From contig CP051232.1 in the NCBI GenBank assembly GCA_017792445.1, positions 4,438,001 through 4,502,000 on the forward strand: a DNA stretch of 64,000 nucleotides, given 5' to 3'. Positions 35,743 to 56,947 of this stretch are shown one piece after another. The notes beneath the pieces were generated by a model that did no database searches, was not told the DNA's origin, and saw only the letters and a program-made list of their open reading frames with translations. A program made the translations under genes and the position numbers. The number at the start of each line of letters is the position of its first letter. Within the stretch, counting starts at the first letter, position 1. This DNA comes from Maritimibacter sp. Its GTDB lineage: Bacteria > Pseudomonadota > Alphaproteobacteria > Rhodobacterales > Rhodobacteraceae.

Positions 35743-36043
35743 CCGGTGCCTTTCGTCCTGTTGCGTCGTTCCGCGCGGACGTGTCTGATTCGACGGCTCC
35801 GCGACTTTGGTGTGTCATCGGTATTCCGATGTCATACCAAACGACAAGGAAAGCCGTCGGACACCGGCCTTGCACATCGCCCAAGCGCACAATCGCAAGG
35901 CAGTTTGGCACGGCTCTGGCCGGTTGTGCAGCGAAAACAGGCACAAGACCGGGATCACGCGGTGTGCAGCTGGTATGCCAAATCTTTTCAGCGCACCTTT
36001 CCGAACACACGCCCCTTTGAACGACATTAATCCGGACAAGTGA
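35743..36043. promoter_or_regulatory. Divergent control region with shared-regulon sites
   Basis: No gene in these 301 nt. It contains TGGTATGCCA (35971-35980), a half-matching GTCATACCAA (35831-35840) and the near-palindrome TCGGTATTCCGA (35818-35829). The first matches the palindrome found upstream of five other operons between 39 and 57 kb. It should hold promoters for the SDR pair and the ABC importer. Confidence 0.7.
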
Positions 36044-36874
36044 ATGGCAATGGTACCCCATCTGCGCCCCGTGGACCCCGCTCCGTCGGGCGCTCCGCAG
36101 ACCCTGATCGAACTCGCCCACGCCGGGGTGACATTCCGCACCCGGACCGGCGAGGACCTGACGGCGGTCGAGGACTTCAACCTGCGTATTCAGGACGGCG
36201 AGATCGTGTCGCTTGTCGGCCCTTCGGGCTGCGGCAAATCGACGGTGCTGCGGATGCTGGCCGGGCTGCAAGAGCCGACCAACGGCGACATCTGGATCGG
36301 CGGCGGCAAGCGGCGGCGCGGGTTCTCGGAGGTCGCCATCGTGTTCCAGCGCCCGACGCTGCTGCCTTGGCTGTCGGTACTGAAGAACGTGCTGTACCCC
36401 GTCCGCGCCCTGCGCCGGACCACCGCTGCCGACCGCGCCCGCGCGCAGGAATTGCTCGAGATGGTCGGGCTGGGCGACATGGGTGGCCGGATGCCGCACG
36501 AACTGTCGGGCGGCATGCAGCAGCGCGCGTCCATCGCGCGGTCGCTGATCCTCGATCCGAAAATCCTGTTGATGGACGAACCGTTCGGCGCGCTTGATGC
36601 GCTGACCCGCGAAGACATGCAACTGGACCTGCTCGACATCCATGCCTCCACCGGCAAGACGATATTGCTGGTCACCCATTCGATCAACGAGGCGGTGCTG
36701 TTGTCGGACCGCGTCGCGGTGATGTCGGCCCGCCCCGGACGCCTGCAAGAACTAATCGACATCGACATCCCGACACCCCGGACGCACGAAACCTCGGCGC
36801 ATCCCGCCTTTCACGACTACACCCGCCGGATCCGCGACAACATCTTCGGACCGAACGCAAGGAGCCACGCATGA
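36044..36874 (+). CDS. ABC transporter ATP-binding protein, SsuB/TauB type
   Basis: 276 aa. Walker A GPSGCGKST, signature LSGGMQQR and Walker B ILLMDEPFGALD are intact. About 30 extra residues precede the domain. It is the first gene of a two-gene unit with the permease (4-nt ATGA overlap). The binding protein of this importer is probably the NMT1-type protein at 39.1 kb, beyond the M20 gene. Expression is likely controlled through the TGGTATGCCA site 64 nt upstream. Confidence 0.92.
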   Translation: MAMVPHLRPVDPAPSGAPQTLIELAHAGVTFRTRTGEDLTAVEDFNLRIQDGEIVSLVGPSGCGKSTVLRMLAGLQEPTNGDIWIGGGKRRRGFSEVAIVFQRPTLLPWLSVLKNVLYPVRALRRTTAADRARAQELLEMVGLGDMGGRMPHELSGGMQQRASIARSLILDPKILLMDEPFGALDALTREDMQLDLLDIHASTGKTILLVTHSINEAVLLSDRVAVMSARPGRLQELIDIDIPTPRTHETSAHPAFHDYTRRIRDNIFGPNARSHA

Positions 36875-37638
36875 GCCCCGCCGCCCGCAAGATCGTCCTG
36901 CCGATCCTCGCCTTCGCCCTGTTCATCGGCCTGTGGGAACTGATCAGCGTGTCGCTGGAGATCCCGGTCTACCTGCTGCCTTCGCCCAGTGCGATCTGGG
37001 AGGGCGGCGCGAAACTTGGCACGTCGCTGTTCACCAACACCGCCGTGACGCTGAAGACGATCCTTCTGGGCTTTGCCCTGTCCTGTGCCGTGGGCATCCC
37101 GCTGGGGGTGCTGGTGTCGGTCAACCGCCTGACGTCCGAGGCGATCTATCCGCTGATCGTGTTCCTGAACGCGATCCCGATCATCTCGATCGCGCCGATC
37201 CTCGTGGTGATCTTCGGCACGGACGAGACGACGCGGCTGATCATCGTGACGCTGACCGCCTTCTTCCCGATCATGGTGGCGACGGCGACGGGGATCATGG
37301 ACACGCCGCAAGAGATGCTGGACCTGTCCCGCGTCGCGGGCGCCGGTCCGCTGACCGAGATCCTGACGATCCGCCTGCCCCACGCGGTGCCTTTCATTTT
37401 CGGCGGCCTGCGCATCGGCGTGACGGTGGCGGTGATCGGCGCTGTGGTGGCAGAGTTCGTCAACGCCAACCGGGGGCTGGGTTATCTCGTCACCTCCTCC
37501 ACCGCGCAATTCGCGATCCCGACGGCGATGGCCTGCGTGGTGATGCTCGCGGTGGTATCGGTGATCCTCTACGAGGCGGTGAACTGGACCCACCGGCTGC
37601 TGTTCGGCTGGTCGCTGCGGAACGATCCGGGGAAATAG
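36871..37638 (+). CDS. ABC transporter permease, SsuC/TauC type
   Basis: 255 aa, with about six membrane helices. The EAA-type cytoplasmic loop is at DLSRVAGAGPLTEILTIRLPHAVPFIFGGL. The start overlaps the ATPase stop. Single-domain permease that presumably works as a homodimer, in contrast to the double-length permease at 18.8 kb. Import substrate is unknown, but the regulon context suggests an N-containing organic compound. Confidence 0.92.
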   Translation: MSPAARKIVLPILAFALFIGLWELISVSLEIPVYLLPSPSAIWEGGAKLGTSLFTNTAVTLKTILLGFALSCAVGIPLGVLVSVNRLTSEAIYPLIVFLNAIPIISIAPILVVIFGTDETTRLIIVTLTAFFPIMVATATGIMDTPQEMLDLSRVAGAGPLTEILTIRLPHAVPFIFGGLRIGVTVAVIGAVVAEFVNANRGLGYLVTSSTAQFAIPTAMACVVMLAVVSVILYEAVNWTHRLLFGWSLRNDPGK

Positions 37639-37660
37639 TCCGGCGCCGCTCTACAAAGAA

Positions 37661-37686
37661 CGCCGGGCCGTGGGGGCGGCCCGGCG
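37661..37686. terminator. Bidirectional terminator
   Basis: Perfect 10-bp GC stem (37661-37670 with 37677-37686), 6-nt loop, between the convergent permease and M20 hydrolase genes. Confidence 0.7.
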
Positions 37687-37738
37687 ATGCGCGGCGGCCT
37701 TTGGCCCTGATGCCGCGCGGGTGTCTGGTCGTCCCGGC

Positions 37739-38944
37739 TCAGGCCGCGTCCCGGTCCAGGTCCGCCTCGGGGTTCAGCTCTTTGTCCGTCAGCGAGATCC
37801 AGTACGCCGCGCCATGACACAGCGCCTCGTCGTTGAAGTCGTAATCGGGCCGGTGATTGCTCGTCCATTTCGGGTCGTCGCCGTTGCCCATCATCACGTT
37901 GCACCCCGGCCGTTGCAGCAGCATGAAGGCAAAGTCATCGGCTGCGTTGATCGGCGGATTGTCGGGGTCGACGTTCTCTGCCCCCACCAGCGCCGAGGCG
38001 GCGGCAACGGCCTTGTCACGTTCGGCCAGCGTGTTCACCAGCGCCGGATAGCCCCGCTGATAGTCGATGGTGGCCGTGCAGCCCGACATCGCCGCCGCGC
38101 CCTCGGCCACATCTTTAAGCCGCTTTTCGATCGTGTCCTGCACCGCCGGATCGTGGATGCGCGAGGTGCCGTGGATGCGGATGTCAGAAGGGATCACGTT
38201 GTTCGCCGTCCCCGCCTCGATCATGCCGATCGACAGCACCGCCGAATCCTGTGCCGAGACATTGCGCGAGATGATCCCGTGAATGCCAAGGATGGTGTGC
38301 GCCAGCGGCACGGTCGGGTCGGTCCCCTTCTCGGGCGAGCCACCATGCCCGCCGGTGCCGTGCAGACCGATCACCCAGTGATCCACGGCGGCCAGTTGCG
38401 GACCGACGCGGGTGACGAACTTGCCCACCGGGATGCCCGGCTTGTTGTGCAGCGAATAGACGGCGTCACAGGGGAAGCGCTCGAACAGGCCGTCGTCGAT
38501 CATTGCCTGCGCCCCGGCGCCGCCCTCTTCGGCGGGCTGGAAGATACAGTGCACCGTGCCCCCGAAATCCGGGTTCTCGGCAAGGTAGCGGGCGGCGTAG
38601 AGCAGCATCACAGTGTGCCCGTCATGGCCGCAACCGTGCATCTTGCCCGGTATGGTCGAGGCATGGGCGAAGGTATTGCCCTCTGTCATGTTCAGCGCGT
38701 CCATGTCGCCCCGGAACCCGATGGACCGGTTCCCCGGACGCTTGCCACGGATCGAGGCGACGACCCCGGTGACACCCAGTCCCGCCTCGAACGGGATTCC
38801 CCACTCGGTCAGCTTGTCCTGCACCAGTTGCGAGGTGCGGAATTCCTCGTAGCTGGTCTCGGGGTGCATGTGGATGTCATGGCGCAGGGCCGTCATCTCG
38901 GCCTCCTGACTGCGCAGGGTTTTCATCACCTTGTCCAAATCCAT
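37739..38944 (-). CDS. M20 family amidohydrolase (hippurate hydrolase/aminoacylase type)
   Basis: 401 aa from the ATG at 38944 (AAAGGAG upstream). Metal ligands of the M20D group are seen: GCGHDGHT (Cys and His), EEGGAGA (catalytic Glu) and the later His in SLHNKPG. Members cut N-acyl or N-carbamoyl amino acids and similar amides in the cytoplasm. It is divergent from an NMT1-type binding protein gene across a region with TGGTATGCCA, so it probably releases an amino acid from the imported compound or from a ring-opened intermediate. Confidence 0.93.
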   Translation of the reverse strand: MDLDKVMKTLRSQEAEMTALRHDIHMHPETSYEEFRTSQLVQDKLTEWGIPFEAGLGVTGVVASIRGKRPGNRSIGFRGDMDALNMTEGNTFAHASTIPGKMHGCGHDGHTVMLLYAARYLAENPDFGGTVHCIFQPAEEGGAGAQAMIDDGLFERFPCDAVYSLHNKPGIPVGKFVTRVGPQLAAVDHWVIGLHGTGGHGGSPEKGTDPTVPLAHTILGIHGIISRNVSAQDSAVLSIGMIEAGTANNVIPSDIRIHGTSRIHDPAVQDTIEKRLKDVAEGAAAMSGCTATIDYQRGYPALVNTLAERDKAVAAASALVGAENVDPDNPPINAADDFAFMLLQRPGCNVMMGNGDDPKWTSNHRPDYDFNDEALCHGAAYWISLTDKELNPEADLDRDAA

Positions 38945-39037
38945 ACCGTTCTCCTTTCGGGACTGTCGCGGGTGCACGTTTTTTGTGCCGTTCGACCGGA
39001 ACGCACCGCGCGGGGGCGCCTTTCAGTGGACGATACA

Positions 39038-39062
39038 CCATCGGTACTCTACTGGTATGCCA
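39038..39062. promoter_or_regulatory. Shared-regulon operator between M20 and binding-protein genes
   Basis: TGGTATGCCA at 39053-39062 and CCATCGGTA at 39038-39046. The first is one base from the perfect palindrome TGGTATACCA. The second recurs, in full or in part, at 43323 and 35816. Confidence 0.7.
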
Positions 39063-39114
39063 ACGCCACACAAGACCCGGCGACGCGAAATCCGACAACA
39101 GGAGAAATGAATTG

Positions 39115-40092
39115 ATGAGACTTCCCACGACGATCGCTTTGTGCGGCCTCGCGATTGGTGCGTCGGCCCAGACGGCCGCTGCCGCCGACCAGGTCGACTT
39201 TCAGCTCGACTGGACTCCGGGTGGCATTTCGGCGGCCTATTACCTTGGCGTCGAGAAGGGCTGCTTCACGGATCAGGACATCGACGTCACCATCTCGCGC
39301 GGCTACGGCGCTGCGGACGCGGTGACCAAGGTCGCGACCGGCGTCGCGGATTTCTCCGTCACCGACCTTGGCGTGATCATCGGCACGATTGCCGAAAGCG
39401 GAGCGCCCGTGAAGGCGATCATGCCCATCGTGGCGCAGTCGCCGATGGCCATCGCCGTCATGGCCGACAGCGAGATCACCGAGTTGAAAGACCTCGAAGG
39501 CCACTCCATCGCCTCGTCCGTGGGCAACGCCGCGATGGAATTCCTGCCGCTGGGCATGGACGCCGTCGGCGGCGATATGTCCAAGGTCGAGATCATCACC
39601 GCCGAAAGCTCGGCCCTGACCGGCCTGCTGCTGCAAAAGCGGGTCGACGCGCTGGCCAGCTACATCACCTCGGTCAAGCGGATCGAGGCCATCGCAGCCC
39701 AGTCGGGGCTGGAGGTGCGCGGCATCCACTATGGCGACGCGCTGGACATCTACAACGCGTCGATCTTCACCTCTGACGCGATGATCGCCGAGAACCCGGA
39801 CCTTGTGAAACGGTTCATGGCAGCCGTCGAGTGCACCTATGACGCCGCCCGCGCCGACCCGGCGGCGGCGGTCGACGCCATCGTTGCGGGCGTCGAGGGA
39901 ATGCAGCGCGAGACACAGACCGACATGGTGCCCTTCTCGTTCGGCTTCGCCTTCGACAACCCGGTGTTCGAGGCCAACGGATATGCCTTCGACATCGAAC
40001 GCGTCGCGCATAACATCGCGATGGTCGACAAGGTCACGCCGCTGTCGCGCGACCTGACCCCCGAGGACGTGGTCTACGTCCCCGCCGAGTAA
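39115..40092 (+). CDS. ABC transporter substrate-binding protein, NMT1/THI5-like
   Basis: 325 aa from the ATG at 39115 (AGGAG upstream). Sec signal peptide MRLPTTIALCGLAIGASAQTAAA, then the NMT1 pattern VDFQLDWTPGGISAAYYLGVEKGCF. Binding proteins of this type capture pyrimidines, riboflavin or related heterocycles, or sulfonates. It is followed by a DapA-like gene. The matching ATPase and permease are most likely those at 36.0-37.6 kb, from which it is separated by the oppositely oriented M20 gene. The operator TGGTATGCCA is 53 nt upstream. Confidence 0.9.
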   Translation: MRLPTTIALCGLAIGASAQTAAAADQVDFQLDWTPGGISAAYYLGVEKGCFTDQDIDVTISRGYGAADAVTKVATGVADFSVTDLGVIIGTIAESGAPVKAIMPIVAQSPMAIAVMADSEITELKDLEGHSIASSVGNAAMEFLPLGMDAVGGDMSKVEIITAESSALTGLLLQKRVDALASYITSVKRIEAIAAQSGLEVRGIHYGDALDIYNASIFTSDAMIAENPDLVKRFMAAVECTYDAARADPAAAVDAIVAGVEGMQRETQTDMVPFSFGFAFDNPVFEANGYAFDIERVAHNIAMVDKVTPLSRDLTPEDVVYVPAE

Positions 40093-40158: not shown

Positions 40159-41088
40159 ATGCCGCTCATCACTGCCCGGTCCAACGGTGTCTTCACCATC
40201 TCGGCCACCCCCTTCGCCGAGGACGGATCGCTTGACCTCGACAGCACCGACCGCCTGACCGACTTCTATGTGCAGGAGGGCGCAAGCGGGCTGACGATCC
40301 TTGGCATGATGGGCGAAGCGCCCAAGCTGACCCAGCCCGAGGCGCGGGCCTTCGTGGAACGGGTGATCGCCCGCGTGCCGGACCTGCCCGTCGTGGTCGG
40401 CGTTTCCGCCTCGGGCCTTGCCGCGATCTCGGAACTGACCAAGGCCGCGATGGACGCGGGCGCCGCCGGCGTCATGGTCGCGCCGCCGCCATCGCTGACC
40501 ACCAACGAGACGATCGAGGCGTATTACGCCAATGTCGTCGATGCCATCGGAACCGACGTTCCGCTGGTTCTGCAGGACTTTCCGCTGTCGACCACCGTCC
40601 CGATCTCGACCGCCACCCTTGGCCGCATTTTCGAGGCACATCCGTCCATCGTGATGCTCAAGCACGAGGACTGGCCGGGGCTTGCGAAGATCTCGGCGCT
40701 GCGCAAGGCCGAGGCCGAAGGACGCCGCCGCACCGCCATTCTGTGCGGCAACGGCGGCATGTTCCTGCCCGAGGAAATGGCCCGTGGCGCCGACGGCGCG
40801 ATGACCGGCTTCTGCTTCCCGCGCATGATGGCCGAGGTCTGCAAGCTGATGACCGCGGGCAAGACCGAACACGCGCGCGATATCTTCGACGCCTACCTGC
40901 CGCTGGTGCGGTATGAACAACAGCCGGGCGTCGGGCTGGCAGTGCGCAAGTACGTGTTCCACTCGCGCGGGGTCATCGCCTCGTCGAAGATCCGCGCGCC
41001 CGGCGCGCCGCTCGCCCCCGCCGCGGTGGCAGAGGTCGAGACTCTCATCAAGCGGCAGGAAGCACGGCTCGCCGAACTTTGCGGCTGA
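40159..41088 (+). CDS. Dihydrodipicolinate synthase family protein lacking the catalytic Tyr
   Basis: 309 aa TIM barrel of the DapA/NAL class. The Schiff-base Lys is present (IVMLKHEDWPG, K168). At the position of the usual Tyr (canonical YNVP) the sequence reads LQDFP, so Tyr is replaced by Gln139. The carboxylate loop also deviates: LGMMGEAPKL where GxTGE is usual. It therefore probably catalyses a different Schiff-base reaction, such as a retro-aldol, decarboxylation or dehydration of a keto acid. It is co-transcribed with the NMT1-type binding protein and ends 7 nt before the convergent MFS gene. Confidence 0.85.
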   Translation: MPLITARSNGVFTISATPFAEDGSLDLDSTDRLTDFYVQEGASGLTILGMMGEAPKLTQPEARAFVERVIARVPDLPVVVGVSASGLAAISELTKAAMDAGAAGVMVAPPPSLTTNETIEAYYANVVDAIGTDVPLVLQDFPLSTTVPISTATLGRIFEAHPSIVMLKHEDWPGLAKISALRKAEAEGRRRTAILCGNGGMFLPEEMARGADGAMTGFCFPRMMAEVCKLMTAGKTEHARDIFDAYLPLVRYEQQPGVGLAVRKYVFHSRGVIASSKIRAPGAPLAPAAVAEVETLIKRQEARLAELCG

Positions 41089-41095: not shown

Positions 41096-42514
41096 TCAGG
41101 CCCGGCTGGAATAGCCTTCAAGCTCGCGGTCGGGCATCCGCAGGCAGGCCGCCAGCGCCACCGCCATCATCAGGATCGCCGGCACCACCAGCGTCCAGGC
41201 CGGCCAGCCCGCCCCGCCGTCGCCATCAAGTCCCCCATCAAGCCCCGAAGCCACGGCGGCAAGCCCGGCGGCGGACGCGCCGACGGTCGCGCCCATCGCC
41301 CGCATGAAGCCCATCACCCCCAGCGCCGCGCCCATGTTCTCGGGCCGCGCCGCGTTCTGCACCGCCAGCAGGAAGATCGGGTACATGATGCCGACACCGA
41401 TCCCCAGCGAGAACGACCCGACCTCGACCATCGCAAAGCTTCCGCCCGCGCCGATGACGACGGCCAGCAGAACGCCTCCGACGACCGCGATGCTTGCCCC
41501 CGCCATCATGATCGGGCGATAGCGCGGGTCGCGCAGCAGCAGGCGCGGCGGCAGGTACGGGCCCAGCATCACGCCGCTGAGGAAACCAAGGATCGCCACC
41601 CCCGCCTCGGTCGCCGTCATCCCGAAGGCCGAACGCCAGTACAGCGGCAGGTAGATCGCCAGTCCGATGTTGGTCCCCTGCGCGCAGAACAGCGCGACCG
41701 CGTTCAGAAGGATCGTCCGCTCGGTCAGCACGTGAACCGGAACCAGCGGGTCGGCGGCTCGGGTCATGCGATAGCCGAAGCCGACCCAGAACACCGCCGC
41801 CGCGGCAAGGAACCCCAACGCCATGGCCGCATTCGCCGCCGTGCCGGTCGCGTTGTCCAGCGCGAGGATTGTCGCGAACGTCGCCAGCGACAAAAGTCCC
41901 GCGCCCAGAACGTCGATCTTCCGCGTCCGCCGCGCCGCGCCGGTGCGGTCGGCCGTCAGGATCATCACGGCGACCAGCGCGCCCAGCGGCAGGTTCAGCC
42001 AGAAAACCGCGCTCCAGTGCAGGTTGTCGGCAAGGATGCCGCCCGCGACCGGCCCGAACACCGAGGACACCGCATAGATGGTCGAGATCCCGGCGGCGAA
42101 CAGCGCCCGCTTGCGCATCGGCACGAGGTCGGCGACGACCACGAAGGGCAACGCGATCAGCCCCCCTGCCCCCGCGCCCTGCAACGCCCGCGCGGCGACC
42201 AGCAGCGCAAGGTCGCGGGCCAGTGCCGCGGCGACCGAGCCGATGACGAACAGCCCCACCGCGATGAGCAGCGCGCGGCGGCGCCCGTGGATGTCGGCGA
42301 AGGCGCCAAGAATCGGCGCCGTCGCGGTCGCGGCCATCAGATAGCCCGTGGCGACCCAGGGCAGCAGACGCCCGCCGCCCAGTTCGGCGGCGATGTCTCC
42401 CATCACCGGGCCGATGATCGTCTGTTCCAGCGCGGCAAGGAACAACGCCAGCAACGCCGCGACAAGCATCAGGCGGCGGCGCTGGGGAAGCTCCGTTGAA
42501 AGGTCGTCCGTCAA
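41096..42514 (-). CDS. MFS transporter, DHA2 (EmrB/QacA) family
   Basis: About 472 aa if it starts at the TTG at 42514; no ATG lies between the upstream GntR stop and the first helix. A GTG at 42592 (inside the GntR gene) and an ATG at 42469 are alternatives. Fourteen hydrophobic helices fit the DHA2 family; motif A-like FADIHGRRRALLI and the first helix with ALEQTIIGPVMGDIAAELGG are clear. Members export drugs or metabolites by proton antiport. It lies 16 nt after the GntR gene, so it is probably controlled with the amide/ring catabolic regulon, perhaps to expel toxic intermediates. Confidence 0.88.
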   Translation of the reverse strand: MTDDLSTELPQRRRLMLVAALLALFLAALEQTIIGPVMGDIAAELGGGRLLPWVATGYLMAATATAPILGAFADIHGRRRALLIAVGLFVIGSVAAALARDLALLVAARALQGAGAGGLIALPFVVVADLVPMRKRALFAAGISTIYAVSSVFGPVAGGILADNLHWSAVFWLNLPLGALVAVMILTADRTGAARRTRKIDVLGAGLLSLATFATILALDNATGTAANAAMALGFLAAAAVFWVGFGYRMTRAADPLVPVHVLTERTILLNAVALFCAQGTNIGLAIYLPLYWRSAFGMTATEAGVAILGFLSGVMLGPYLPPRLLLRDPRYRPIMMAGASIAVVGGVLLAVVIGAGGSFAMVEVGSFSLGIGVGIMYPIFLLAVQNAARPENMGAALGVMGFMRAMGATVGASAAGLAAVASGLDGGLDGDGGAGWPAWTLVVPAILMMAVALAACLRMPDRELEGYSSRA

Positions 42515-42530
42515 GGCGTCTGGTATCCGG

Positions 42531-43217
42531 TCAGGTTCTGCGGCCGAGGATATAGTCGATGATCGCGTCGCGCACGTGGTCAAGATGCGCACCCATCAGG
42601 TCGCGCGACCGCTCGGGGTCGTCGCCCGCCACGGCCCGGATCAGCGCAAGGTGCTCTTCGGCGCCGGGCTTGCGGCGGTGCGAGATGCGCGCGGTGTTGA
42701 ACAGGTGCGTCCGGCGGCGCAGGTCGCGGATCGCGGCCACGATCATCGGATTGCCCGCCGCTTCTGCGATGGTGTTGTGAACAAGGTCGTCGACGTCCCA
42801 GTGCTCTGAGGTGCTGACCTCGGCCGCGTCGCGCAGCGCGATGATCGCCGCCTCGACCTTCAGCAGCGTCTCGGGCGTGATGCGCCCGGTGGCGCGGCCC
42901 GAAACCTCGACCTCGAGGATGCGGCGCATGTCCAGAAGGCTGACGTAGCTTTCGACGCTGAGTTCGGCCACGACCAGCATGCGACCTTGCCGGCGCGACA
43001 CAAGCTGTTCCGCCTCCAGCCGTCCCAGCGCCTCGCGGACCGGGGTGCGCGAAATGCCCAGCACCTCGGCCAGCCGCCGCTCTTGCAGGACCTGCCCCGG
43101 CTTCAGTTCGCCCGACAACATCCGGTCGAGGATGCGCCCGTAGGCGAAGTCGGCAAGGCTGACGCCCGCCTCTTCCACCGGCAGTTCTCGGACTGCGCTT
43201 GCGTTCAGATCCTCCAT
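42531..43217 (-). CDS. GntR family regulator, FCD subfamily (regulator 1 of the palindrome regulon)
   Basis: 228 aa from the ATG at 43217. Winged helix with LAEVLGISRTPVREALGRLEAEQL; the FCD domain has metal-type residues in DDLVHNTIAEAAGN, EEHLALI and GAHLDHV. The stretch SRTPVREALGRLEAE is identical to that of the GntR protein at 54.8 kb, so the two should read the same DNA. The divergent spacer to nitrilase 1 contains CGGTATGCCA. It is likely a repressor released by a pathway compound, acting on several operons here; that scope is inference. Confidence 0.92.
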   Translation of the reverse strand: MEDLNASAVRELPVEEAGVSLADFAYGRILDRMLSGELKPGQVLQERRLAEVLGISRTPVREALGRLEAEQLVSRRQGRMLVVAELSVESYVSLLDMRRILEVEVSGRATGRITPETLLKVEAAIIALRDAAEVSTSEHWDVDDLVHNTIAEAAGNPMIVAAIRDLRRRTHLFNTARISHRRKPGAEEHLALIRAVAGDDPERSRDLMGAHLDHVRDAIIDYILGRRT

Positions 43218-43322
43218 TCGTCGTCCTTCCTTTCCCGGCCAGCGGCCCTTGCCGCTCAAAAAAGCGGCAGGTGCCCACAAGAACCAAATTCGTACTCGCA
43301 CCGCGCCTTGACGCCTCGCGTA

Positions 43323-43336
43323 CCATCGGTATGCCA
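43323..43336. promoter_or_regulatory. Shared-regulon operator between GntR 1 and nitrilase 1
   Basis: CGGTATGCCA at 43327-43336 overlaps CCATCGGTA at 43323-43331. It lies about 110 nt from both divergent starts and is the only one of the six sites with C rather than T at its first position. Confidence 0.65.
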
Positions 43337-43444
43337 TTGGAGCACCTAATGGAAGATGTTTCGCGCGCGAAACGCTGCGCGCCCACTTCCCCGCTTCCCA
43401 CCGGCCGCCCGAACCCGCGGCCTTCCAACGACCGGAGCCTTCAC

Positions 43445-44842: not shown

Positions 44843-44852
44843 TGGCATACCA
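44843..44852. promoter_or_regulatory. Shared-regulon operator upstream of the second NMT1 importer operon
   Basis: TGGCATACCA lies 66 nt before the binding protein start; one base from the perfect palindrome TGGTATACCA. Confidence 0.7.
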
Positions 44853-44918
44853 TGTGAATGCCAACTCAACACCGATGAGAAACCGCCTGCATCCGGGCGC
44901 CAACGAGAGGCCAGCCAA

Positions 44919-45969: not shown

Positions 45970-45999
45970 CCCTTTGTGCAAGTAACGACAGAGGCCACC

Positions 46000-46788: not shown

Positions 46789-46872
46789 CCGCGCCCGTAC
46801 AAGAATGGCGCCCGCCCGCCGGACGCCACCACTCACACCAAGGAGCGGTCCAATGGACCCGGACAACCAGCA

Positions 46873-49481: not shown

Positions 49482-49506
49482 CGCGGCGATATCAAGGCTT
49501 GGCGGC

Positions 49507-50907
49507 GTGACGCAGGCGCGCGCCGGGTTTTGTCTTTTGCTGGCGTCTCTGGCCGGGTCCGTGGGCATCTCGCATGCGGACGAAGAGACCCGTGTCAGCG
49601 CGACACTCGGCTTTTCCGGTTGGGGCAGCGACGCGGGCACGACGAGACGCGGGGCGATCGGCTTTGAGGGCTGGGGCGCCGAGACGGCGGCACGGCAGGC
49701 CGCCCTTGCCTTCACGGGGTTCGGAGGTCCGGACCCGGCGGTCGATGGTGGTCTGACGTTTGCGGGTTGGGCCCTGACCAAGGACGGCCCCAAAGCGGAC
49801 CTGACCTTTTCGGGCTGGGGCATGACCCAAGAGGCCCCCAAGGCAAAGCTGGCGTTTTCGGGCTGGGCCAAGGATGGGCCGACAATCGAAACCTCGCTGG
49901 CTTTCGCGGGCTGGGGAGCAGACACGGCGCGCGTTCAGGGCCCGCTGTCCTTCTCGGGGTTCGGCGACCCTTCGGACGCGCCGGCCATGGCGCTTGCCTT
50001 TGCGGGCTGGGCGATGGACCAGACGGAGCTTTCGGGTGCCGTGAGCTTCGCAGGCTGCATCCGGGACGAGACCATCGCCCCCCATCCCCCGCTGCCACCA
50101 GAGGTCGTGCGGGCGCATTTCGCCAGCACCGACAAAGATCCAAATCTGGATCTCGAGGGGAACTGGCGCATCACGTGGGACGACGCGCCGATATCCTCGG
50201 CCTTCGTGACACTGACCAAGGGCGGCAGCTGGTCCTGCGTGCCGGGCGGGGACGGCTGTTGGTACGCGTTCTCCAGAGACCCGAGCGCGCCATGGCTTAT
50301 CGATATGTATATTCCCGAGCTCACGCTGTTCGAAAGCGAAGCCACGATCGGGCCGGGCCGCCAGTTCAGCGCGCAGTATTACTACCAAGTGCTTGGCCAC
50401 TGGGGCGGCACCTCGAAGGGCGTAGCCACGGAAAACACCATCGTCGGTCAATGGAGCTATGGCGACGAAGGCGGTCGCGAGGTCTGGACGCGCGTGCCCG
50501 GCACCATCACGGCGGCTGCCGGCAGCGACGGGCGCGTGGCGCCCCTTGGGCAGGCGGTTTCGGTTGTCACCGAATACGTCGACGCGACCTACACGATGCG
50601 CGGAAACCGCCCGGAAGCGTCGCTTCGCGTGCTGGGCGATCAGCTTTGGGGTGTTCAGCGGTACTGGATTCCTGCCGATAGCGATATCGAGATCGGCAGG
50701 GTCTGGTACATGTGCGCGGACTGGGCCGAAACGGGTGAAGTCTACGACGGCCACGAAGGCTGCTTTTCCAGCGGCGGCGCGGTCGGGCTGCGATTTGACC
50801 TCAACATCTGGCCCGACGCCAAGCCGGGATGGCATTACCTTTATGTGAACGACGTCGCGATCCCGTTCGAACTGGAAATCCAGGGTTATCCCGAGTGCGG
50901 CACCTAA
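49507..50907 (+). CDS. Secreted protein with ten 16-residue FSGWG repeats
   Basis: 466 aa from the GTG at 49507; another GTG at 49468 is in frame. Signal peptide to about residue 24 (GISHA). Residues 31-186 consist of ten repeats with the core xLxF(S/A/T)G(W/F)(G/A): the core Phe is at 36, 53, 69, 85, 101, 117, 133, 149, 165 and 181, a period of 16 (17 once). The C-terminal 270 residues are non-repetitive, rich in Trp, Gly and Tyr, with Cys pairs (WSCVPGGDGCW, YMCAD, EGCFSS), and look like a beta-rich domain. I recognise neither part. Function unknown; binding to a surface or glycan is a guess. Confidence 0.7.
   Translation: MTQARAGFCLLLASLAGSVGISHADEETRVSATLGFSGWGSDAGTTRRGAIGFEGWGAETAARQAALAFTGFGGPDPAVDGGLTFAGWALTKDGPKADLTFSGWGMTQEAPKAKLAFSGWAKDGPTIETSLAFAGWGADTARVQGPLSFSGFGDPSDAPAMALAFAGWAMDQTELSGAVSFAGCIRDETIAPHPPLPPEVVRAHFASTDKDPNLDLEGNWRITWDDAPISSAFVTLTKGGSWSCVPGGDGCWYAFSRDPSAPWLIDMYIPELTLFESEATIGPGRQFSAQYYYQVLGHWGGTSKGVATENTIVGQWSYGDEGGREVWTRVPGTITAAAGSDGRVAPLGQAVSVVTEYVDATYTMRGNRPEASLRVLGDQLWGVQRYWIPADSDIEIGRVWYMCADWAETGEVYDGHEGCFSSGGAVGLRFDLNIWPDAKPGWHYLYVNDVAIPFELEIQGYPECGT
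49597..50064 (+). repeat. Coding tandem repeat, ten units of about 48 bp
   Basis: Ten protein repeats with 16-residue spacing (first interval 17). The DNA copies have diverged, though short blocks coding for F-S/A-G-W-G recur, so the repeat is kept by protein selection rather than recent expansion. Confidence 0.75.
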
Positions 50908-50953
50908 GGGCCTAGGCTTGCTCGGAGAGATCCGGGAGCACCACCAAGGAAAA

Positions 50954-51000
50954 GCCCCGCCCCTGCCCGATGACGTCGAAACATCGGACGGGGACGGGGC
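50954..51000. terminator. Bidirectional terminator
   Basis: Nineteen-bp stem (50954-50972 with 50982-51000) with three G-U or A-C type mismatches and a 9-nt loop, between convergent genes. On the minus strand it is followed by TTTTCC, so it ends the Rieske operon. Confidence 0.75.
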
Positions 51001-51054
51001 GTCCCGGAACCATGGGGCTTCAAACGGGCGAGCGTGTGGAACCCGGCCCCAGGT

Positions 51055-52053
51055 TCAGAGATCGAGGACGAGGCGTCCGGACTTGCTGCCGGAACAGCAG
51101 ATCAGCATGACCTTGTTCGAGGCGCGCTCGCGGTCGCTGAGGATGTTGTCCTTGTGGTCAGGTTCGCCTTCGATGACCCGCGTCTCGCAGGTGCCGCAGA
51201 CACCGGAGCGGCAGGAATAGGCGACGCGGATGCCATTCTCGGTGAGGACTTCCATGATCGTGCGCCCGGCCGGAACCTCGAACTCCTGCCCTCGGCGCTT
51301 GAGCACCACGGTGAAGCTCTCGGTCGAGGCTTCGAACTCGTTCTTGAAGTGCTCGACGTGGACGGCATCGGGGTCCCTGCCCTTGGATGCGTCGGTGAAA
51401 GCCGCGATCATCGGTTCCGGGCCGCAGCAATAGATATGCGCGTCGGGCGCGGCGGCGGCCACGCGGGGGGCGATGTCCATGACCGTGCCGGTCAGCGCAT
51501 CGTCATGCAGGTGCAGCACCCCGTTCGAGGCGGCGGCCAGCGCGCGAAGCTCTGGCAGGTAGGCGGCCAGCGCCTCGGCCCGGAAGGCATAGTGCAGTTC
51601 CCACGGGGTTCCTCGCGCGGCGCAGGCGCGGATCATCGACAGGATCGGCGTGATGCCGATGCCGCCCGCGAAGAAGGCGAAGCGCGGGGCGTCGGCCAGC
51701 GGGAAGGTGTTCAGCGGAGCCGAGACCTGAAGCGTCGCCCCGACGCGAAGGTCCTCGACAAGGAACGCCGACCCGCCACGGCTGGCGGGATCGCGATTGA
51801 CCGCCACAAGGAAGCGGTCGTCGTCGCCGGGCGCGTTGACCAGCGAGTAGCTGTTCGACAGGTCCCCCGGCAGCGCGAGGTCGATATGGGCCCCGGCCTC
51901 GATCCCGTCGAGCCGGCCACCGTCCAAGCGGCGAAGTTCGATCTCGCGGATGGTCTCGGCGAGGTAGCGGATCGCCGTGACGCGCAGCGTCAGGGGGCCG
52001 GTGTCCTGTGCCGGCGCTGTCGCGCCGGCACGGATGGTTTCCTGCATGGTCAT
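51055..52053 (-). CDS. Ring-hydroxylating oxygenase reductase (PDR/VanB type)
   Basis: 332 aa in the order flavin domain, NAD domain, C-terminal plant-type [2Fe-2S]. Iron-sulfur ligands are C281, C286 and C289 (YSCRSGVCGTC) and C319 or C320 near the end. The nucleotide domain starts at FAFFAGGIGITPILSMIR. It passes electrons from NAD(P)H to the Rieske oxygenase encoded 3 nt upstream. It is the last gene of the nitrilase 2-oxygenase-reductase operon. Confidence 0.94.
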   Translation of the reverse strand: MTMQETIRAGATAPAQDTGPLTLRVTAIRYLAETIREIELRRLDGGRLDGIEAGAHIDLALPGDLSNSYSLVNAPGDDDRFLVAVNRDPASRGGSAFLVEDLRVGATLQVSAPLNTFPLADAPRFAFFAGGIGITPILSMIRACAARGTPWELHYAFRAEALAAYLPELRALAAASNGVLHLHDDALTGTVMDIAPRVAAAAPDAHIYCCGPEPMIAAFTDASKGRDPDAVHVEHFKNEFEASTESFTVVLKRRGQEFEVPAGRTIMEVLTENGIRVAYSCRSGVCGTCETRVIEGEPDHKDNILSDRERASNKVMLICCSGSKSGRLVLDL

Positions 52054-52056
52054 GCC

Positions 52057-53391
52057 TTACTCGGCCGCCGAGAGGTTCGGCTTGTAGCCCTTGGCTTCGG
52101 CCATCTTCTCTTCGTAGCCGTCCAGCCAGTCGGTGCCCTTCGGCACGATGATGTCGCCGCCACGGGCATTCTGGGCGTATTCCGGGTGATCCACGAAGTC
52201 GGGCAGCTTCTTGCTGTCGCGCCATTCCAGCGCGGCGTCGAGCATCACGCGACGGGTGAGGATGACCATGCGGTCCGACGCGGCGAGGTGCTCCATCGTG
52301 CGGTCGACCACATGGCCCATGCTTTCCTGGATCGCCTGATCCTGAAGCGGAACGCCGACGATGCCGGTGTAGCTGTCGCCGTTGCGCTGCCACTCGCGGT
52401 CGATGCCGTAGTCGTTGGTGGCATCCTTGACCGGACGCCAGCGGCCTTTCCAGTCGGTCGTGGTGGGCAGGTATTCCAGCGGGCGTTCCAGACCGCCGAC
52501 CGGGGTGCCGTCAGCGTATTTCAGCTTTTTCTTGCCGCCGCCCTCGGCCCGCGACAGGTCGATGTTGAAGATCATCGTCGAGTCGTCGTCGATGGGCACC
52601 CACGCGTTGACGGTCTTGCTGGCCGCAAGGCCGCCGCCACCGGGATAGGTGACCCAGAACGGGTACAGATAGCAGGCGTAACGCTGGTGCTCGTGGCCTT
52701 CCATCGCGTCACGCTGCGCCGAGTACATGGTGCCGAAGTTGGTCGTGGTGACGTTGATCTTGGGCGACTTCTCGGTGACCGTGAACACTTCGGGGTCGGA
52801 CAGGTCGAGCTTTTCGCCGTCGATGCCGCCCACGTGCAGGAAGCCAAGGTGCGAGGTGTCGATGTCGCCTTCCAGCGCCTGCATGTAGTTGCAGTCGCGG
52901 TGGGTCAGCGCGATGTTGCGGTCGTCGCCCTCGCCCATGATGGCGTCGATCTCGGGCAGCGGCGGCGGGTTGTCTTGACGCTCGCCGAAGTAGGCGAAGA
53001 CGATGCCGCCGGATTCACAGGTCTTGTAGGCATAGGCCGGGGTGCCCGCCGGGTACTTGTTCTTGTCCTCGAGGTTCGGCTGGTCGAGGCACTTGCCGGT
53101 CACGTCGAACTTCCAGCCGTGATAGGCGCAGCGGATGCCGCCTTTCTCGTTGCGTCCGAAGAACAGCGACGCGCAGCGGTGCGGGCAGCGGTGGTCCATG
53201 ACGCCCACCCGGCCCTCGGTGTCCCGGAAGCCGATCAGCTTTTCGCCGAGGATCATCAGGCGCACCGGGTCGCCGTCGGCGACAAGCTCGGACGACAGGC
53301 AGACCGGGGTCCAGAACTGGCGGAAGAATTCTCCCATCAGGGTTCCTTTGCCCACGGCGCAGAGGTCGACGTTTTCTTCAGCTGTGATCAT
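52057..53391 (-). CDS. Rieske non-haem iron oxygenase, alpha subunit
   Basis: 444 aa from the ATG at 53391 (AGGAG upstream). Rieske [2Fe-2S] ligands are C69, H71, C88 and H91. Mononuclear iron ligands are D178, H181 and H186 in DIDTSHLGFLH. No beta subunit is encoded, so it is the alpha-only type (phthalate/vanillate/carbazole-like), which often carries out mono- or dioxygenation or N/O-demethylation of aromatic or heterocyclic acids. Together with amidases and a hydantoinase-like enzyme in the same regulon, a nitrogen heterocycle or N-methyl compound is a reasonable substrate class. Confidence 0.94.
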   Translation of the reverse strand: MITAEENVDLCAVGKGTLMGEFFRQFWTPVCLSSELVADGDPVRLMILGEKLIGFRDTEGRVGVMDHRCPHRCASLFFGRNEKGGIRCAYHGWKFDVTGKCLDQPNLEDKNKYPAGTPAYAYKTCESGGIVFAYFGERQDNPPPLPEIDAIMGEGDDRNIALTHRDCNYMQALEGDIDTSHLGFLHVGGIDGEKLDLSDPEVFTVTEKSPKINVTTTNFGTMYSAQRDAMEGHEHQRYACYLYPFWVTYPGGGGLAASKTVNAWVPIDDDSTMIFNIDLSRAEGGGKKKLKYADGTPVGGLERPLEYLPTTTDWKGRWRPVKDATNDYGIDREWQRNGDSYTGIVGVPLQDQAIQESMGHVVDRTMEHLAASDRMVILTRRVMLDAALEWRDSKKLPDFVDHPEYAQNARGGDIIVPKGTDWLDGYEEKMAEAKGYKPNLSAAE

Positions 53392-53401
53392 CTTGGTTCT
53401 C

Positions 53402-54475
53402 CTAGAGTTCGACGGTCGAGGCCGGATCCTCGGTTCCGGCGGAAAGGGGCACGAGCACACCGGCCCGTTCGAGATTGGCCCGCGCCTGCGCGATGGCGGC
53501 GTGGGTTTCGCTTGCGTGTTTCATCGGGGCGTCGCGGAAGCGGTCGGGCGGGTAGAAATGCGCGTCGGCGTAAAACGGGACGTACATCTCGTAGCGGGCG
53601 CGCAGGTGCGGGTTGGACAGGCCGGTGTCGTTTCGGCGGTCAGCCCGCAGGCGCTCGATGTCGATCATGGCCGAGACAGAGGTCCCCTCGGCGTCCCCTT
53701 CCTCGAAGGCCAGCGTTTCGCCCCAGTGGTCGAGGATATGGGACCGGCCGCCGGTGAAGGTGCCGTCCGGCGAGAAGCCGATGGGCCCGGCGACATTGGC
53801 CGAAACCATGTAGGTCATGTTCTCGGCGCAGCGGGCCAGCTTGGCCGCCTCTTGCGCCGCGGAATAACGCGAATTCGTCGGATGCAGGATCACCTCGGCC
53901 CCGTTGAACATCATGCAGCGCGCGACCTCGGGCACCGTGATCTCGCCACAGGCGATGACGCCGATCTTGCCCAGAGGCGTGTCGGCGACCGGAAAGACCT
54001 GATCCTTCGGCGTGGCTTTCATGTAGTCGGTCATGAAGTCGTGGACCGACGGGAAGGCCGCTACGTTCACGCGGCGATAGCGATAGATGATGTCGCCGTC
54101 GGGGCCGATGATGATGCAGGTGTTGAAGTAGCGGCCCGGCCATTCCTCGGGCGCTTCGAACACGTTGCCGGCGATGTAGATGCCTTCGCGTTTGGCCAGC
54201 GCCTGAAGCGGTTCGGTCAGAGGACCGGGCACCGTCGAACAGGCGCGGCGGATCCAGTCCTCGACCGCCATGCCCAACGGCGGCCCCTGCATGCCGAACT
54301 CTGGGAAGACGACAAGATCGGGACGGTCGGGCCCGGCAAGCGCGGCTTCGATCAGTCCGATCATACGCGCCTGATTGCGGGCGATCGCCGCCCAGCCGCC
54401 CGCGTCGTCGGCAGCCTGACAGGCCCGTTCGCTCTGCATCTGGATGCAGGTCGCGCGCCAGGACGGTATCGTCAT
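53402..54475 (-). CDS. Carbon-nitrogen hydrolase (nitrilase superfamily), copy 2
   Basis: 357 aa. It aligns without gaps to copy 1 over the first 180 residues: E59 (VVFPEF), R135 in YRYRRVN at the usual Lys position, and C176 in IACGEITVPE. It is the first gene of the operon with the Rieske oxygenase, 10 nt upstream of it. AAGGAG precedes the start. It probably cleaves an amide formed before or after the oxygenase step. The perfect operator TGGTATACCA lies about 50 nt upstream, between this gene and GntR 2. Confidence 0.9.
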   Translation of the reverse strand: MTIPSWRATCIQMQSERACQAADDAGGWAAIARNQARMIGLIEAALAGPDRPDLVVFPEFGMQGPPLGMAVEDWIRRACSTVPGPLTEPLQALAKREGIYIAGNVFEAPEEWPGRYFNTCIIIGPDGDIIYRYRRVNVAAFPSVHDFMTDYMKATPKDQVFPVADTPLGKIGVIACGEITVPEVARCMMFNGAEVILHPTNSRYSAAQEAAKLARCAENMTYMVSANVAGPIGFSPDGTFTGGRSHILDHWGETLAFEEGDAEGTSVSAMIDIERLRADRRNDTGLSNPHLRARYEMYVPFYADAHFYPPDRFRDAPMKHASETHAAIAQARANLERAGVLVPLSAGTEDPASTVEL

Positions 54476-54527
54476 CGGGTCTCCTTCCGGCGTCTTAGCC
54501 GTGTATCAGGTGCCAGCTGCGCACCAC

Positions 54528-54537
54528 TGGTATACCA
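54528..54537. promoter_or_regulatory. Perfect shared-regulon operator TGGTATACCA
   Basis: The only fully symmetric copy of the regulon palindrome, in the 291-nt gene-free region between nitrilase 2 (minus) and GntR 2 (plus). It lies 53 nt from the nitrilase start, a position suited to repression. Confidence 0.75.
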
Positions 54538-54766
54538 TTAGTCTGCCGCCCTCGGAACCCGAAATCAAGCGCCTCCCGATGCCGACCGCTGCCGGGGGCC
54601 GGAATGCGATGCGTTGCCTAAAAAATCCGCAGTTCAACGCGTCTGCCGTCAAACGCGGGGCAGAAGGAATCCCGCGACGGGATACCAAGGGCATTCCGGC
54701 GGTTCCAAAACAGGCAAAGGGTTGCTAGAACGTTCGGCACGAGGAGAGGCTAAGGACTACAGGCAG

Positions 54767-55444
54767 ATGGAAACCAATGCGGCGCTGGACGTAACTGCGC
54801 TCCACGACAAACCGACTCGGACCAACGAGGTTTACGAGCAGATCATCGACATCCTGATCCGTGGCGAGTTGCGCCCGGGCGATGTCATCGTCGAACGCCG
54901 CATGGCCGAACGCCTGAATGCCTCGCGCACCCCGGTCCGCGAAGCGCTAGGCCGGCTCGAAGCCGAGCGGATGGTGCTGCGCCAGCCCGGTCGCGGCGTG
55001 ACGGTTGCGCCCTTCTCGACCGAAGCCTTCGTCGAGGTGCTGAACATCCGCCAGCTTCTTGAATCCGAAGCCGCCCGCCTTGCCGCCGGACAGATCCCGC
55101 CCGAAACGATCTCAGAGATCCGCGACGCGATGAAGGCGCTGTCGGAAAAACCCGAACCGACCCCCGCCGAGGTCTGGGAGACCGACAACCTGCTGCACGG
55201 CGCGATTGCCGAGGCGTCGGGGAACGAACTGATGGCCGCGATGATCCGCGACCTGCGGCGCCGGACCCATGTGTTCAACGCCTTCCGCAACCCGAACAAG
55301 CACGTCTACCAGTATGACGAGAACGCCAAGTTGCTGGACGCGATCGAGACCGGCGACGGCGAGACCGCGCGCGCGGCGATGACGCAGCATATCGAGACGG
55401 TGAAGGTCGCGATCGTCAGCCGTCTGGCGGGGCTGACGCGCTGA
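54767..55444 (+). CDS. GntR family regulator, FCD subfamily (regulator 2 of the palindrome regulon)
   Basis: 225 aa from the ATG at 54767; the open frame extends to 54614 but without a start signal. Winged helix with MAERLNASRTPVREALGRLEAERM. In the FCD domain DNLLHGAIAEASGN and TQHIETV keep two expected ligands, while the His of the middle motif is replaced by Asn (YDENAKLL, against EEHLALI in regulator 1). The DNA-reading stretch SRTPVREALGRLEAE is identical to regulator 1. It therefore probably binds the same palindrome but senses a different effector. Confidence 0.92.
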   Translation: METNAALDVTALHDKPTRTNEVYEQIIDILIRGELRPGDVIVERRMAERLNASRTPVREALGRLEAERMVLRQPGRGVTVAPFSTEAFVEVLNIRQLLESEAARLAAGQIPPETISEIRDAMKALSEKPEPTPAEVWETDNLLHGAIAEASGNELMAAMIRDLRRRTHVFNAFRNPNKHVYQYDENAKLLDAIETGDGETARAAMTQHIETVKVAIVSRLAGLTR

Positions 55445-55446
55445 TG

Positions 55447-55469
55447 CTGGCGGGCGCCCTGCCCGCCAG
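55447..55469. terminator. Bidirectional terminator
   Basis: Perfect 9-bp stem (55447-55455 with 55461-55469), 5-nt loop, between convergent GntR 2 and hydantoinase-like genes. Confidence 0.7.
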
Positions 55470-55492
55470 ACCCTTGTTCCACATCTCTTTGC

Positions 55493-56842
55493 TCAGGCCG
55501 TCCGGCGGGCATAGGTGCCGGGCGTTTCCGCGCTGACGCTGGTGCCGTCCCAAACCCGCACGCCATTCACATAGGTCGCCGAAGGGATCGCCGCGAAGGT
55601 CATTCCGTCATAGGCGCTCCAGGCCGAGCCTTCGGGCGTGCGCGCGGAATCATAGACGATCTCGCCCGGCGTCAGCACCGCGATGTCGGCGTCGCAGCCC
55701 GGCTCCAGTCGGCCCTTGGTTTCCAGTCCGAAGAAGTCCGCAGGCCCCTCGGCCAGCAGCGCGGCGGTCAGCGAAGCGGCGGCCTCGACCGATCCGGTGC
55801 GGCGCAGCGCCTCGGTGTAGAAGCCCGGCAGCAGCGTTTCGAGCCCCGGCATGCCCGCCGCCACTTCAAAGATGTTTTCGGACGCCTTCCGCTCAAGACC
55901 CCAAGCCGAGTGGTCCGAAGAGACGAAAGCCGCGCCGCCGTCCTCGATCACCTGCCACAGCGCATCGCGGACGCCCGACCGGATCGGCGGGTTCACCTTC
56001 AGCTTCGGGCCAAGCGTCGGCATATGCTCTTCCGCGTCGAACAGCAGGTAATGCAGGCACATTTCGGCGCTCGCCTTCTCGCCCCGCGCGGCATGTTCCG
56101 CAACAAGGTCGAAGCCCTCGGGGATCGAGATGTGGACGATATGCGCGTGGCCGCCCAGCGATGCGCCGAGTTCGAGGAAGGTCGCCGTCGCCGACATCTC
56201 GGCCACCGGCGGACGCGAAGGAGAGTGATCGAGCGGCGTGGTGCGCCCCTCGGCTCGGAACTTCGCCTCGGTCGCGCGGACGACCTCTTGATCCTCGTTG
56301 TGCAGGCCGACGGGAAGGCCGGTGCCGTCGAGCGTTTCGAAAAGGGTCAACACCGCGCCGGACCCGATCCGGGGGAAGCGGTGGGGATGCGCCTCGAAAG
56401 ACGAGATCTTGAAGGCCGCCACGCCCGCTTCGACCAGCCCGCTGATGTCCGCAGTGTCGGGGTCGGTCGGGATGGTGGCGTACAGCGCGACGTTGGTGTG
56501 GGCCAGCTCTTCTATCGCGGCGACCTTCTGGTTCAGCAGGTCGACGGTCGTGATCGGATCGGGATGGTCATAGGGCATGTCGACGATGGTGGTGACCCCG
56601 CCGATGGCCGCCGCCCGGGTGGTCGGCGCGATGCCGGGAAAGCCCCATTGGCTGCCCGCATGGGTCTGACCGTCGATGGCGCCGGGCAGGATCAGCGCGT
56701 CACCGTGGTCGGTGGCTTCGGCGGCGTCGGGCGCCTCGCCCTCGCCAAGCGACACGATACGGCCACCGGCAATGCCCAGCCAGCCCTTCGTGACGCTGCC
56801 ACCGGGCAGCACTAGCCGCCCCTTCAAGACGAGATCGAGCAT
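55493..56842 (-). CDS. Hydantoinase/allantoinase/dihydroorotase-like cyclic amidohydrolase
   Basis: 449 aa from the ATG at 56842 (AAGGAGGG upstream). TIM-barrel metal hydrolase of the cyclic amidase group. Carboxylated Lys K145 (AAFKISSFE), H181 (GLHNED), H237 (IVHIS) and D310 (SSDHSAW) are kept. The first metal motif is altered: DGQTH instead of DxHxH, so Gln59 replaces a metal-binding His. Members open hydantoin, dihydropyrimidine, allantoin or dihydroorotate rings. The operon opposite encodes an Asp/Glu/hydantoin-type racemase, which supports a ring with an imide or amide bond as substrate. Confidence 0.88.
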   Translation of the reverse strand: MLDLVLKGRLVLPGGSVTKGWLGIAGGRIVSLGEGEAPDAAEATDHGDALILPGAIDGQTHAGSQWGFPGIAPTTRAAAIGGVTTIVDMPYDHPDPITTVDLLNQKVAAIEELAHTNVALYATIPTDPDTADISGLVEAGVAAFKISSFEAHPHRFPRIGSGAVLTLFETLDGTGLPVGLHNEDQEVVRATEAKFRAEGRTTPLDHSPSRPPVAEMSATATFLELGASLGGHAHIVHISIPEGFDLVAEHAARGEKASAEMCLHYLLFDAEEHMPTLGPKLKVNPPIRSGVRDALWQVIEDGGAAFVSSDHSAWGLERKASENIFEVAAGMPGLETLLPGFYTEALRRTGSVEAAASLTAALLAEGPADFFGLETKGRLEPGCDADIAVLTPGEIVYDSARTPEGSAWSAYDGMTFAAIPSATYVNGVRVWDGTSVSAETPGTYARRTA

Positions 56843-56937
56843 CCCTGCCCTCCTTGGTTTCCATCCGGCACATGCCGCGGTGCGCCTGCATCCCCGCCCA
56901 AGGGGCTTGCGTTGCTGCGGCAAACGTGGAATCCCTT

Positions 56938-56947
56938 TGGCATACCA
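56938..56947. promoter_or_regulatory. Shared-regulon operator between cyclic amidase and NIPSNAP operons
   Basis: TGGCATACCA in the 166-nt divergent spacer, about 62 nt from the NIPSNAP start and 96 nt from the amidase start. One base from the perfect palindrome. Confidence 0.7.

Follow-up and report, generated by a model that had tools for sequence, protein, structure and literature searches.

Gene content of the island

We analysed a window of 64,000 nucleotides from Maritimibacter sp. (contig CP051232.1, positions 4,438,001 to 4,502,000) that harbors a gene island of ~24 kb, presumably for the degradation of a nitrogen-containing compound, running from the short-chain dehydrogenase (SDR) gene SDRa (34359) to a racemase gene (58728) and comprising 22 recognisable genes, with an even G+C content throughout. 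Two of these genes encode FCD-type GntR regulators, hereafter GntR1 and GntR2, and the palindrome TGGYATRCCA recurs in the promoter regions of the island.

Gene orientation suggests 11 transcription units, which the probable operators in six regions, A to F, can serve. Operator A1 (35819-35839, + strand; CGGTATTCCG-a-TGTCATACCA) lies upstream of SDRb-SDRa, two short-chain dehydrogenase genes (34359-35742, - strand), and operator A2 (35960-35980, + strand; CGGTGTGCAG-c-TGGTATGCCA) upstream of ABC ATPase 1 and permease 1 (36044-37638, + strand). Operator B (39042-39073, + strand; exact core) separates the M20 amidohydrolase gene (37739-38977, - strand) from the divergent genes for the NMT1-type binding protein 1 (39115-40092, + strand) and a DapA-like enzyme (40159-41088, + strand). 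Likewise, operator C (43316-43347, + strand; one-mismatch core) stands between GntR1 (42531-43217, - strand) with its downstream DHA2-type MFS exporter (41096-42592, - strand; best NCBIfam models below their cut-offs) and the divergent nitrilase-superfamily hydrolase 1 (43445-44467, + strand). Operator D (44843-44863, - strand; exact core) precedes a single series consisting of NMT1-type binding protein 2 (44919-45920, + strand), SDRc, ABC ATPase 2 and permease 2 (45976-48543, + strand).

The two remaining regions are again divergent. Operator E (54517-54548, + strand), with a perfect TGGTATACCA at 54528, faces nitrilase-superfamily hydrolase 2 (53402-54475, - strand; 45% identical to nitrilase 1) followed by the Rieske oxygenase and ferredoxin-NAD reductase (51055-53460, - strand) on one side and GntR2 (54767-55444, + strand) on the other. 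Operator F (56927-56958, + strand; exact core) lies between a cyclic amidase of the amidohydrolase family (55493-56842, - strand) and the NIPSNAP, RidA-like and Asp/Glu/hydantoin racemase genes (57009-58728, + strand), the starts of the cyclic amidase and of NIPSNAP being predicted ones. For 10 of the 11 first genes the distance between site and predicted start is 52-109 nt.

A previous sequence-only reading had described the palindrome upstream of six operon groups. It is indeed found upstream of each, the grouping now being seven sites and 11 predicted units, with importer 1 split over two operons. That all sites lie in promoter regions also holds, with the condition that GntR1, the cyclic amidase and NIPSNAP start after the first codon of their longest open reading frames (ORFs); otherwise the sites at 43327 and 56938 would not be intergenic. 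The GntR1 start is guessed to be ATG 43217 (longest ORF from 43337) and for GntR2 the putative start is ATG 54767 (longest ORF from 54614). Most alignments of distant relatives of GntR1, the cyclic amidase and NIPSNAP begin later than the longest ORF, not all of them, the cyclic amidase of Devosia aurantiaca being an exception that aligns from residue 3. Among four distant GntR2 relatives, the alignment to the long ORF begins at residues 51-53 for two and at residues 15 and 20 for the other two.

Between permease 2 and the Rieske reductase there are two ORFs (48846-50907; 211 and 504 aa) with no Pfam match. In the 504-aa ORF, GWG/GWA residues recur and a 48-bp repeat is present in 2.5 copies (49753-49870). 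The same gap measures 2.4 kb in the genome G001 and 215 nt in Tropicimonas.

Distribution of the palindrome in the genome and in relatives

A scan of the window returned exact TGGYATRCCA sites at 35971, 39053, 44843, 54528 and 56938, along with one-mismatch sites at 43327 (CGGTATGCCA) and 35830 (TGTCATACCA). All six sites of the sequence-only reading were thus recovered, and its additional weaker match is present with one mismatch, at 35830 instead of 35831. Five exact sites compare with 0.17 expected, a count reached in none of 100 dinucleotide shuffles. Allowing one mismatch, the window holds 8 sites against a shuffle mean of 4.2 (9 of 100 shuffles reach 8), the remaining one-mismatch site (62628) lying beyond the island limits.

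Over the genome as a whole, a single contig of 4,675,334 bases, exact sites are barely in excess, 7 versus 5 for the reversed control, so that by count alone the motif stays near chance frequency; its placement does not, given that 5 of the 7 fall within the island, the other two being TGGCATGCCA and located elsewhere. The probability of finding five of seven sites in 0.45% of the genome is ~4e-11 by simple arithmetic, for a motif that was chosen post hoc. With up to one mismatch there are 165 sites genome-wide, fewer than the 236 of the reversed control. Together with the unremarkable window count, this means that the 10-bp pattern with one mismatch is not specific by itself, and counting it in this way was dropped for window and genome alike. 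The short pattern is informative only if exact or extended.

Among 2,560 palindrome families (decamers with one Y/R position), TGGYATRCCA ranks top in the promoter regions of the window, with 5 occurrences versus at most 1 for any other. Counting over the 23-kb stretch including coding DNA, another family also reaches 5, and in a control stretch (5001-28000) one family reaches 7; whole-stretch counting therefore fails to single the motif out, whereas promoter-only counting succeeds.

Our search with GntR2 in named genomes, which detects close relatives only, returned nine loci, six of them with island relatives (58-95% identity to GntR2). The carriers are Maritimibacter NAT7, Tropicimonas marinistellae SF-16, Pseudooceanicola sp. 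HF7, Pseudooceanicola sediminis CY03, Devosia sp. RYN_494 and Devosia aurantiaca H239; Devosia belongs to Hyphomicrobiales and the other carriers to Rhodobacterales. Gene order is alike over the compared parts (from GntR1 onward only in P. sediminis), with exceptions: both Pseudooceanicola islands have no cyclic amidase between GntR2 and NIPSNAP, and no racemase was found beside NIPSNAP-RidA in Devosia. In D. aurantiaca (L062-L063), frameshifts appear to split GntR2, nitrilase 2, the Rieske and reductase genes, M20, SDRc, binding protein 2 and the cyclic amidase, a result of sequencing errors or else of decay.

Across the seven islands, counting that of the window, each of the 40 promoter regions contains a site with at most one mismatch. 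In the four Devosia and Pseudooceanicola islands, 12 of 22 promoter regions have an exact site and 22 of 22 a site with up to one mismatch; 60 shuffles of those regions gave means of 0.07 and 1.18, respectively, with largest values of 1 and 4. These promoter regions were drawn from the gene table after the sites were known, some extend into over-long ORF starts, and region D of Devosia RYN_494 alone measures 1.8 kb. Considering six islands, all 21 exact sites and 44 of the 46 one-mismatch sites fall within promoter regions, which make up 6-13% of each island. Conversely, 41 operon-internal or convergent gaps of six islands (7,543 nt), a selection of ours that includes one gap with the two unassigned ORFs (window 48541-51057), contain no site with up to one mismatch. 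In the pooled Devosia and Pseudooceanicola promoter regions TGGYATRCCA is again the top family of 2,560 (12 occurrences), followed by families at 11 and 10 with the same TGGTATACCA inside; within the single islands of Devosia RYN_494, D. aurantiaca and P. sediminis it merely ties with overlapping families that contain TGGTATACCA. The motif is thus kept upstream of orthologous operons in relatives down to Devosia, which is how the sequence-only reading had proposed to check it.

Chance, or the simple inheritance of unconstrained sequence by close relatives, could be invoked given the post hoc choice of the motif, the genome total near that of the control and the Tropicimonas flanks, which beyond the arrays are still 65-69% identical. 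Between genera, however, the Devosia and Pseudooceanicola flanks are only 26-42% identical (ungapped) and the sites persist, the core identity in this comparison being high partly by construction. Along with the empty gaps and with shuffles that never exceed 4 of 22 regions, this leaves such an explanation a negligible probability.

Other exact sites in the relatives include a pair beside the FCD-GntR gene of Tropicimonas locus L052, one beside glycosyltransferases (L064) and further ones inside ORFs (L053, L054, L061, L065 and L043). Exact copies outside the island are partly due to chance or to other regulators.

The island is seldom sampled. Of 394 genomes sampled from the family, 4 have a GntR2 match at 1e-40, as do 3 of 385 from the class; these counts include the window's own genome, and the other matches are relatives at 40-43%. 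At 1e-150 a Rieske relative occurs in a single genome, again the window's own, out of 390 sampled from the order. Since these samples returned no known carrier besides the own genome, they point to rarity, not absence. On plasmids, relatives are seen only below 60% identity (36 records). The presence of the island in Devosia and a few Rhodobacterales suggests that island, regulators and operators may have spread together horizontally. Among the papers listed in searches of the open-access PMC literature, none describes this regulon or island.

Probable operator arrays with 11-bp spacing

The sites share a TGGTATRCCA core, seen in 44 sites, and around these, leaving out the near-duplicate G001, we scored the decamer TGGYRYRCCA at every offset. 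Neighboring decamers peak at -11 (mean 7.0 of 10; 33 of 44 sites at 7 or more), with a second peak at +11 (mean 5.9; 22 of 44) and a minor third peak at -22 (mean 4.9; 12 of 44). All other offsets range from 2.2 to 4.6, and shuffles average 3.5, with 1.05 of 44 sites at 7 or more (largest 6). In total, 40 of 44 sites are accompanied, 11 bp or one helical turn away, by one or more neighbors of 7/10 or better. The neighbor units differ by region, being of a GGTRT type in A and B and of a GCRC type in E.

Instead of the weight matrix that the sequence-only reading had proposed, an extended pattern, GGYRTNCNNNTGGYATRCCA, was used to scan the window. With up to two mismatches it has 12 matches, all on the seven sites, where 0.29 are expected. 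The palindrome as originally described is therefore correct and the site larger than 10 bp, its 11-bp arrays having escaped that reading. Genome-wide, the extended pattern with at most one mismatch is found at 4 places among the matches listed, all in the island; a - strand match at window 44843-44862 (0 mismatches) is additional to those. At three mismatches genome-wide it drops to background level (151 and 156 versus 132 and 147 in the control), and no array emerged from a repeat search within single promoter regions.

Weaker half-sites 7-12 nt from the centre, of unknown function, are reported for 23 groups of the GntR family (PMC4494728). Given this precedent, the 11-bp arrays are best seen as a strong instance of a known feature, and they offer a clean case for the role of such additional half-sites across the family.

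Candidate regulators, proposed mechanism and pathway

GntR1 and GntR2 both exceed the Pfam gathering scores for GntR and FCD, consistent with an N-terminal winged helix and a C-terminal FCD domain. The paralogues are 41% identical, have near-identical recognition helices with a common ERR[LM]AE.L..SRTPVREALGRLEAE, and each gene adjoins an array. The operator core, GT-AT-AC, agrees with the FadR-subfamily pattern of TKGT and ACMA boxes 2-3 nt apart in its two-base version, that is, the consensus palindrome TKGT..ACMA with 2 nt between GT and AC (PMC4494728). The island resembles the FadR-subfamily groups of that account in palindrome, two-base spacing and weaker flanking half-sites, and differs in having its neighbors repeatedly at 11 bp, in many cases on either side.

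Attempts to name the regulators gave no assignment. PhnR-type TIGR03338, the best NCBIfam model for both, fell below its cut-off (95.5 for GntR2 and 88.1 for GntR1, of 271.5 bits). UxuR, the only one of the FadR-subfamily groups scored, and ExuR (NF007588 and NF008571) were rejected, with 52.8 of 442 and 44.9 of 396 bits for GntR2 and 36.1 and 26.4 bits for GntR1. No model named HpxS, HypR, MdcY, PrpR or GntR is among the NCBIfam matches listed, the sequences of those groups being uncompared.

We then considered all 11 GntR homologues fetched by similarity outside the island, allowing one mismatch within 400 nt upstream. A site precedes four of the six ERR-type genes (L018, L020, L068 and L069), two of them (L068 and L069) with 11-bp neighbors of 8/10, and none of the five non-ERR genes. 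Separately, one GntR homologue (L067, G266:C92) has TGGTATACCA on both sides and lies beside a creatinase/prolidase-type M24 gene, and the L052 locus of Tropicimonas (7588-8708) has its two exact sites beside both the FCD-GntR gene and a thiamine pyrophosphate (TPP) enzyme.

Being present ahead of every recognised operon and retained along with the island across two bacterial orders, the motif is very probably the shared binding site of the GntR-type regulators of the island; the data indicate binding by both. A regulator of some other family is conceivable in that short palindromes are also used elsewhere; the fit to the FadR-subfamily class as described in PMC4494728, the lack of any recognised regulator besides the two FCD-GntR proteins among the 22 genes and the recurrence of the motif upstream of GntR-type genes outside the island make it very improbable. 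A nearer contender, to which we would grant slightly less than even odds, is that one GntR protein alone reads the motif, the other having drifted to another operator or co-regulating a subset. The low identity of the paralogues and the regional differences in site detail speak for it; the common helix motif, the site adjoining both genes and the lack of a second conserved palindromic-decamer family in the promoter regions speak against it. It overlaps with our preferred reading, which allows for one or both readers.

That reading, with a probability of roughly 0.8, is a local regulon of 11 units whose arrays are read by one or, more likely, both FCD-GntR paralogues, probably as repression lifted by a metabolite. 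Each predicted unit is preceded by an array of one strong and one or two weak TGGYRYRCCA decamers, 11 bp from centre to centre, to which the proteins would bind as dimers; with units one turn apart, the dimers would occupy one face of the DNA. At the nitrilase 1 and binding protein 2 promoters, where the strong decamer lies on the -10 region, the bound protein would block RNA polymerase, and repression would end on binding of a metabolite of the pathway, probably a carboxylic acid, to the FCD domain. Of 17 TTGAC boxes near the sites, 11 start 18-21 nt upstream of the core, which puts the decamer on the -10 region; all 11 belong to regions C and D, where they are visible as -35 boxes, and ten face nitrilase 1 or binding protein 2, so that repression by occlusion is likely at these promoters.

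A close parallel is Atu1419 of Agrobacterium fabrum, described in PMC7797058 as an FCD-GntR repressor that controls part of a catabolic region and binds a 10-bp palindrome, ATGTATACAT, overlapping the -10 boxes at two promoters. Regulator type, palindrome length and -10 overlap at two promoters are alike. For Atu1419 the distance between palindromes is 190 bp, or 109 bp to a degenerate copy, and looping is seen, whereas the island has 11-bp arrays; arrays A1 and A2 are 141 bp apart, so looping may also take place here. Atu1419 has a metal site of Asn and three His in the same account, and Asp and three His appear to be kept at these positions in GntR1 and GntR2, which would suit a carboxylate effector. 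In favour of the array being an activator site instead, with a GntR protein aiding transcription when the substrate is present, a -35 box at the right distance is seen in C and D only; the core on the -10 at these two regions, as in the Atu1419 repressor, makes activation improbable.

E. coli NanR (PMC8012715) is alike in being a GntR-type repressor with GGTAT repeats and several dimers side by side. Its (GGTATA)3 operator places dimers about half a turn apart and requires a 32-residue N-terminal extension; the island units are palindromic and one turn apart, unlike a NanR-type operator, and GntR2 would have only ~18 residues before its helix-turn-helix (HTH) domain if it starts at 54767, a start that is uncertain. 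We further speculate that the two paralogues share the arrays, side by side or mixed, as a two-input switch integrating two metabolite signals per promoter, with one duplicated regulator and one operator code moved between orders; this elaboration we consider unlikely.

Several observations weigh against the regulon as proposed. The putative start of GntR2 lies 229 nt from its site, and neither of the two ORFs at 48846-50907 has its own site. Nor can the 44 sites count as independent, the genomes coming in close pairs and two Tropicimonas sites neighboring each other. The ERR-type homologues L017 and L019 have no site with up to one mismatch within 400 nt upstream, and the L052 regulator, reached via its sites and hence separate from the 11 homologues, is a non-ERR FCD-GntR (helix DERSLAQ) whose ORF has an exact site 49 nt ahead of it, so the helix rule admits exceptions. 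The other 6 of 17 TTGAC boxes lie elsewhere, none at the given distance in A, B, E or F, so that -10 occlusion may not be general. As for the substrate, the nearest NCBIfam model of both binding proteins is the sulfonate (SsuA) family, below cut-off, which would suggest sulfonate importers. On balance, the sequence-only reading is right in substance: the regulon is new and well supported, its regulators belong to a known family and the system is not of a new kind. It is self-contained and testable, with regulators, operators, 22 genes of an unassigned catabolic pathway and copies in named strains, and given that regulator, operator and enzymes travel together, promoter induction offers a direct screen for the substrate.

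Tentatively, and with somewhat more doubt than confidence, the enzymes suggest a cyclic-ureide- or pyrimidine-like compound. The solved structure nearest to binding protein 2 is 4nmy, followed by 3ix1 and THI5, which bind pyrimidine precursors. The Rieske protein comes closest to a putative phthalate 4,5-dioxygenase, nitrilase 2 to Nit2, formamidases and amidases, the racemase to hydantoin racemases and the cyclic amidase to hydantoin-5-propionate amidohydrolase (below cut-off). The pathway might then proceed from import through Rieske oxidation and cyclic-amide opening to amide/carbamoyl hydrolysis. Ergothioneine utilisation was rejected, the cyclic amidase scoring 468.6 of the 600 bits of the ErtD model (NF058538), and homarine was set aside as unsupported among the entries listed in a single search. 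In Pseudooceanicola HF7 (L060:6692-8712), a TGGTATACCA site also stands ahead of two genes at the end of a contig, for a dihydropyrimidinase (720.2, cut-off 647) and a racemase; this locus may adjoin the start of the contig that carries the island.

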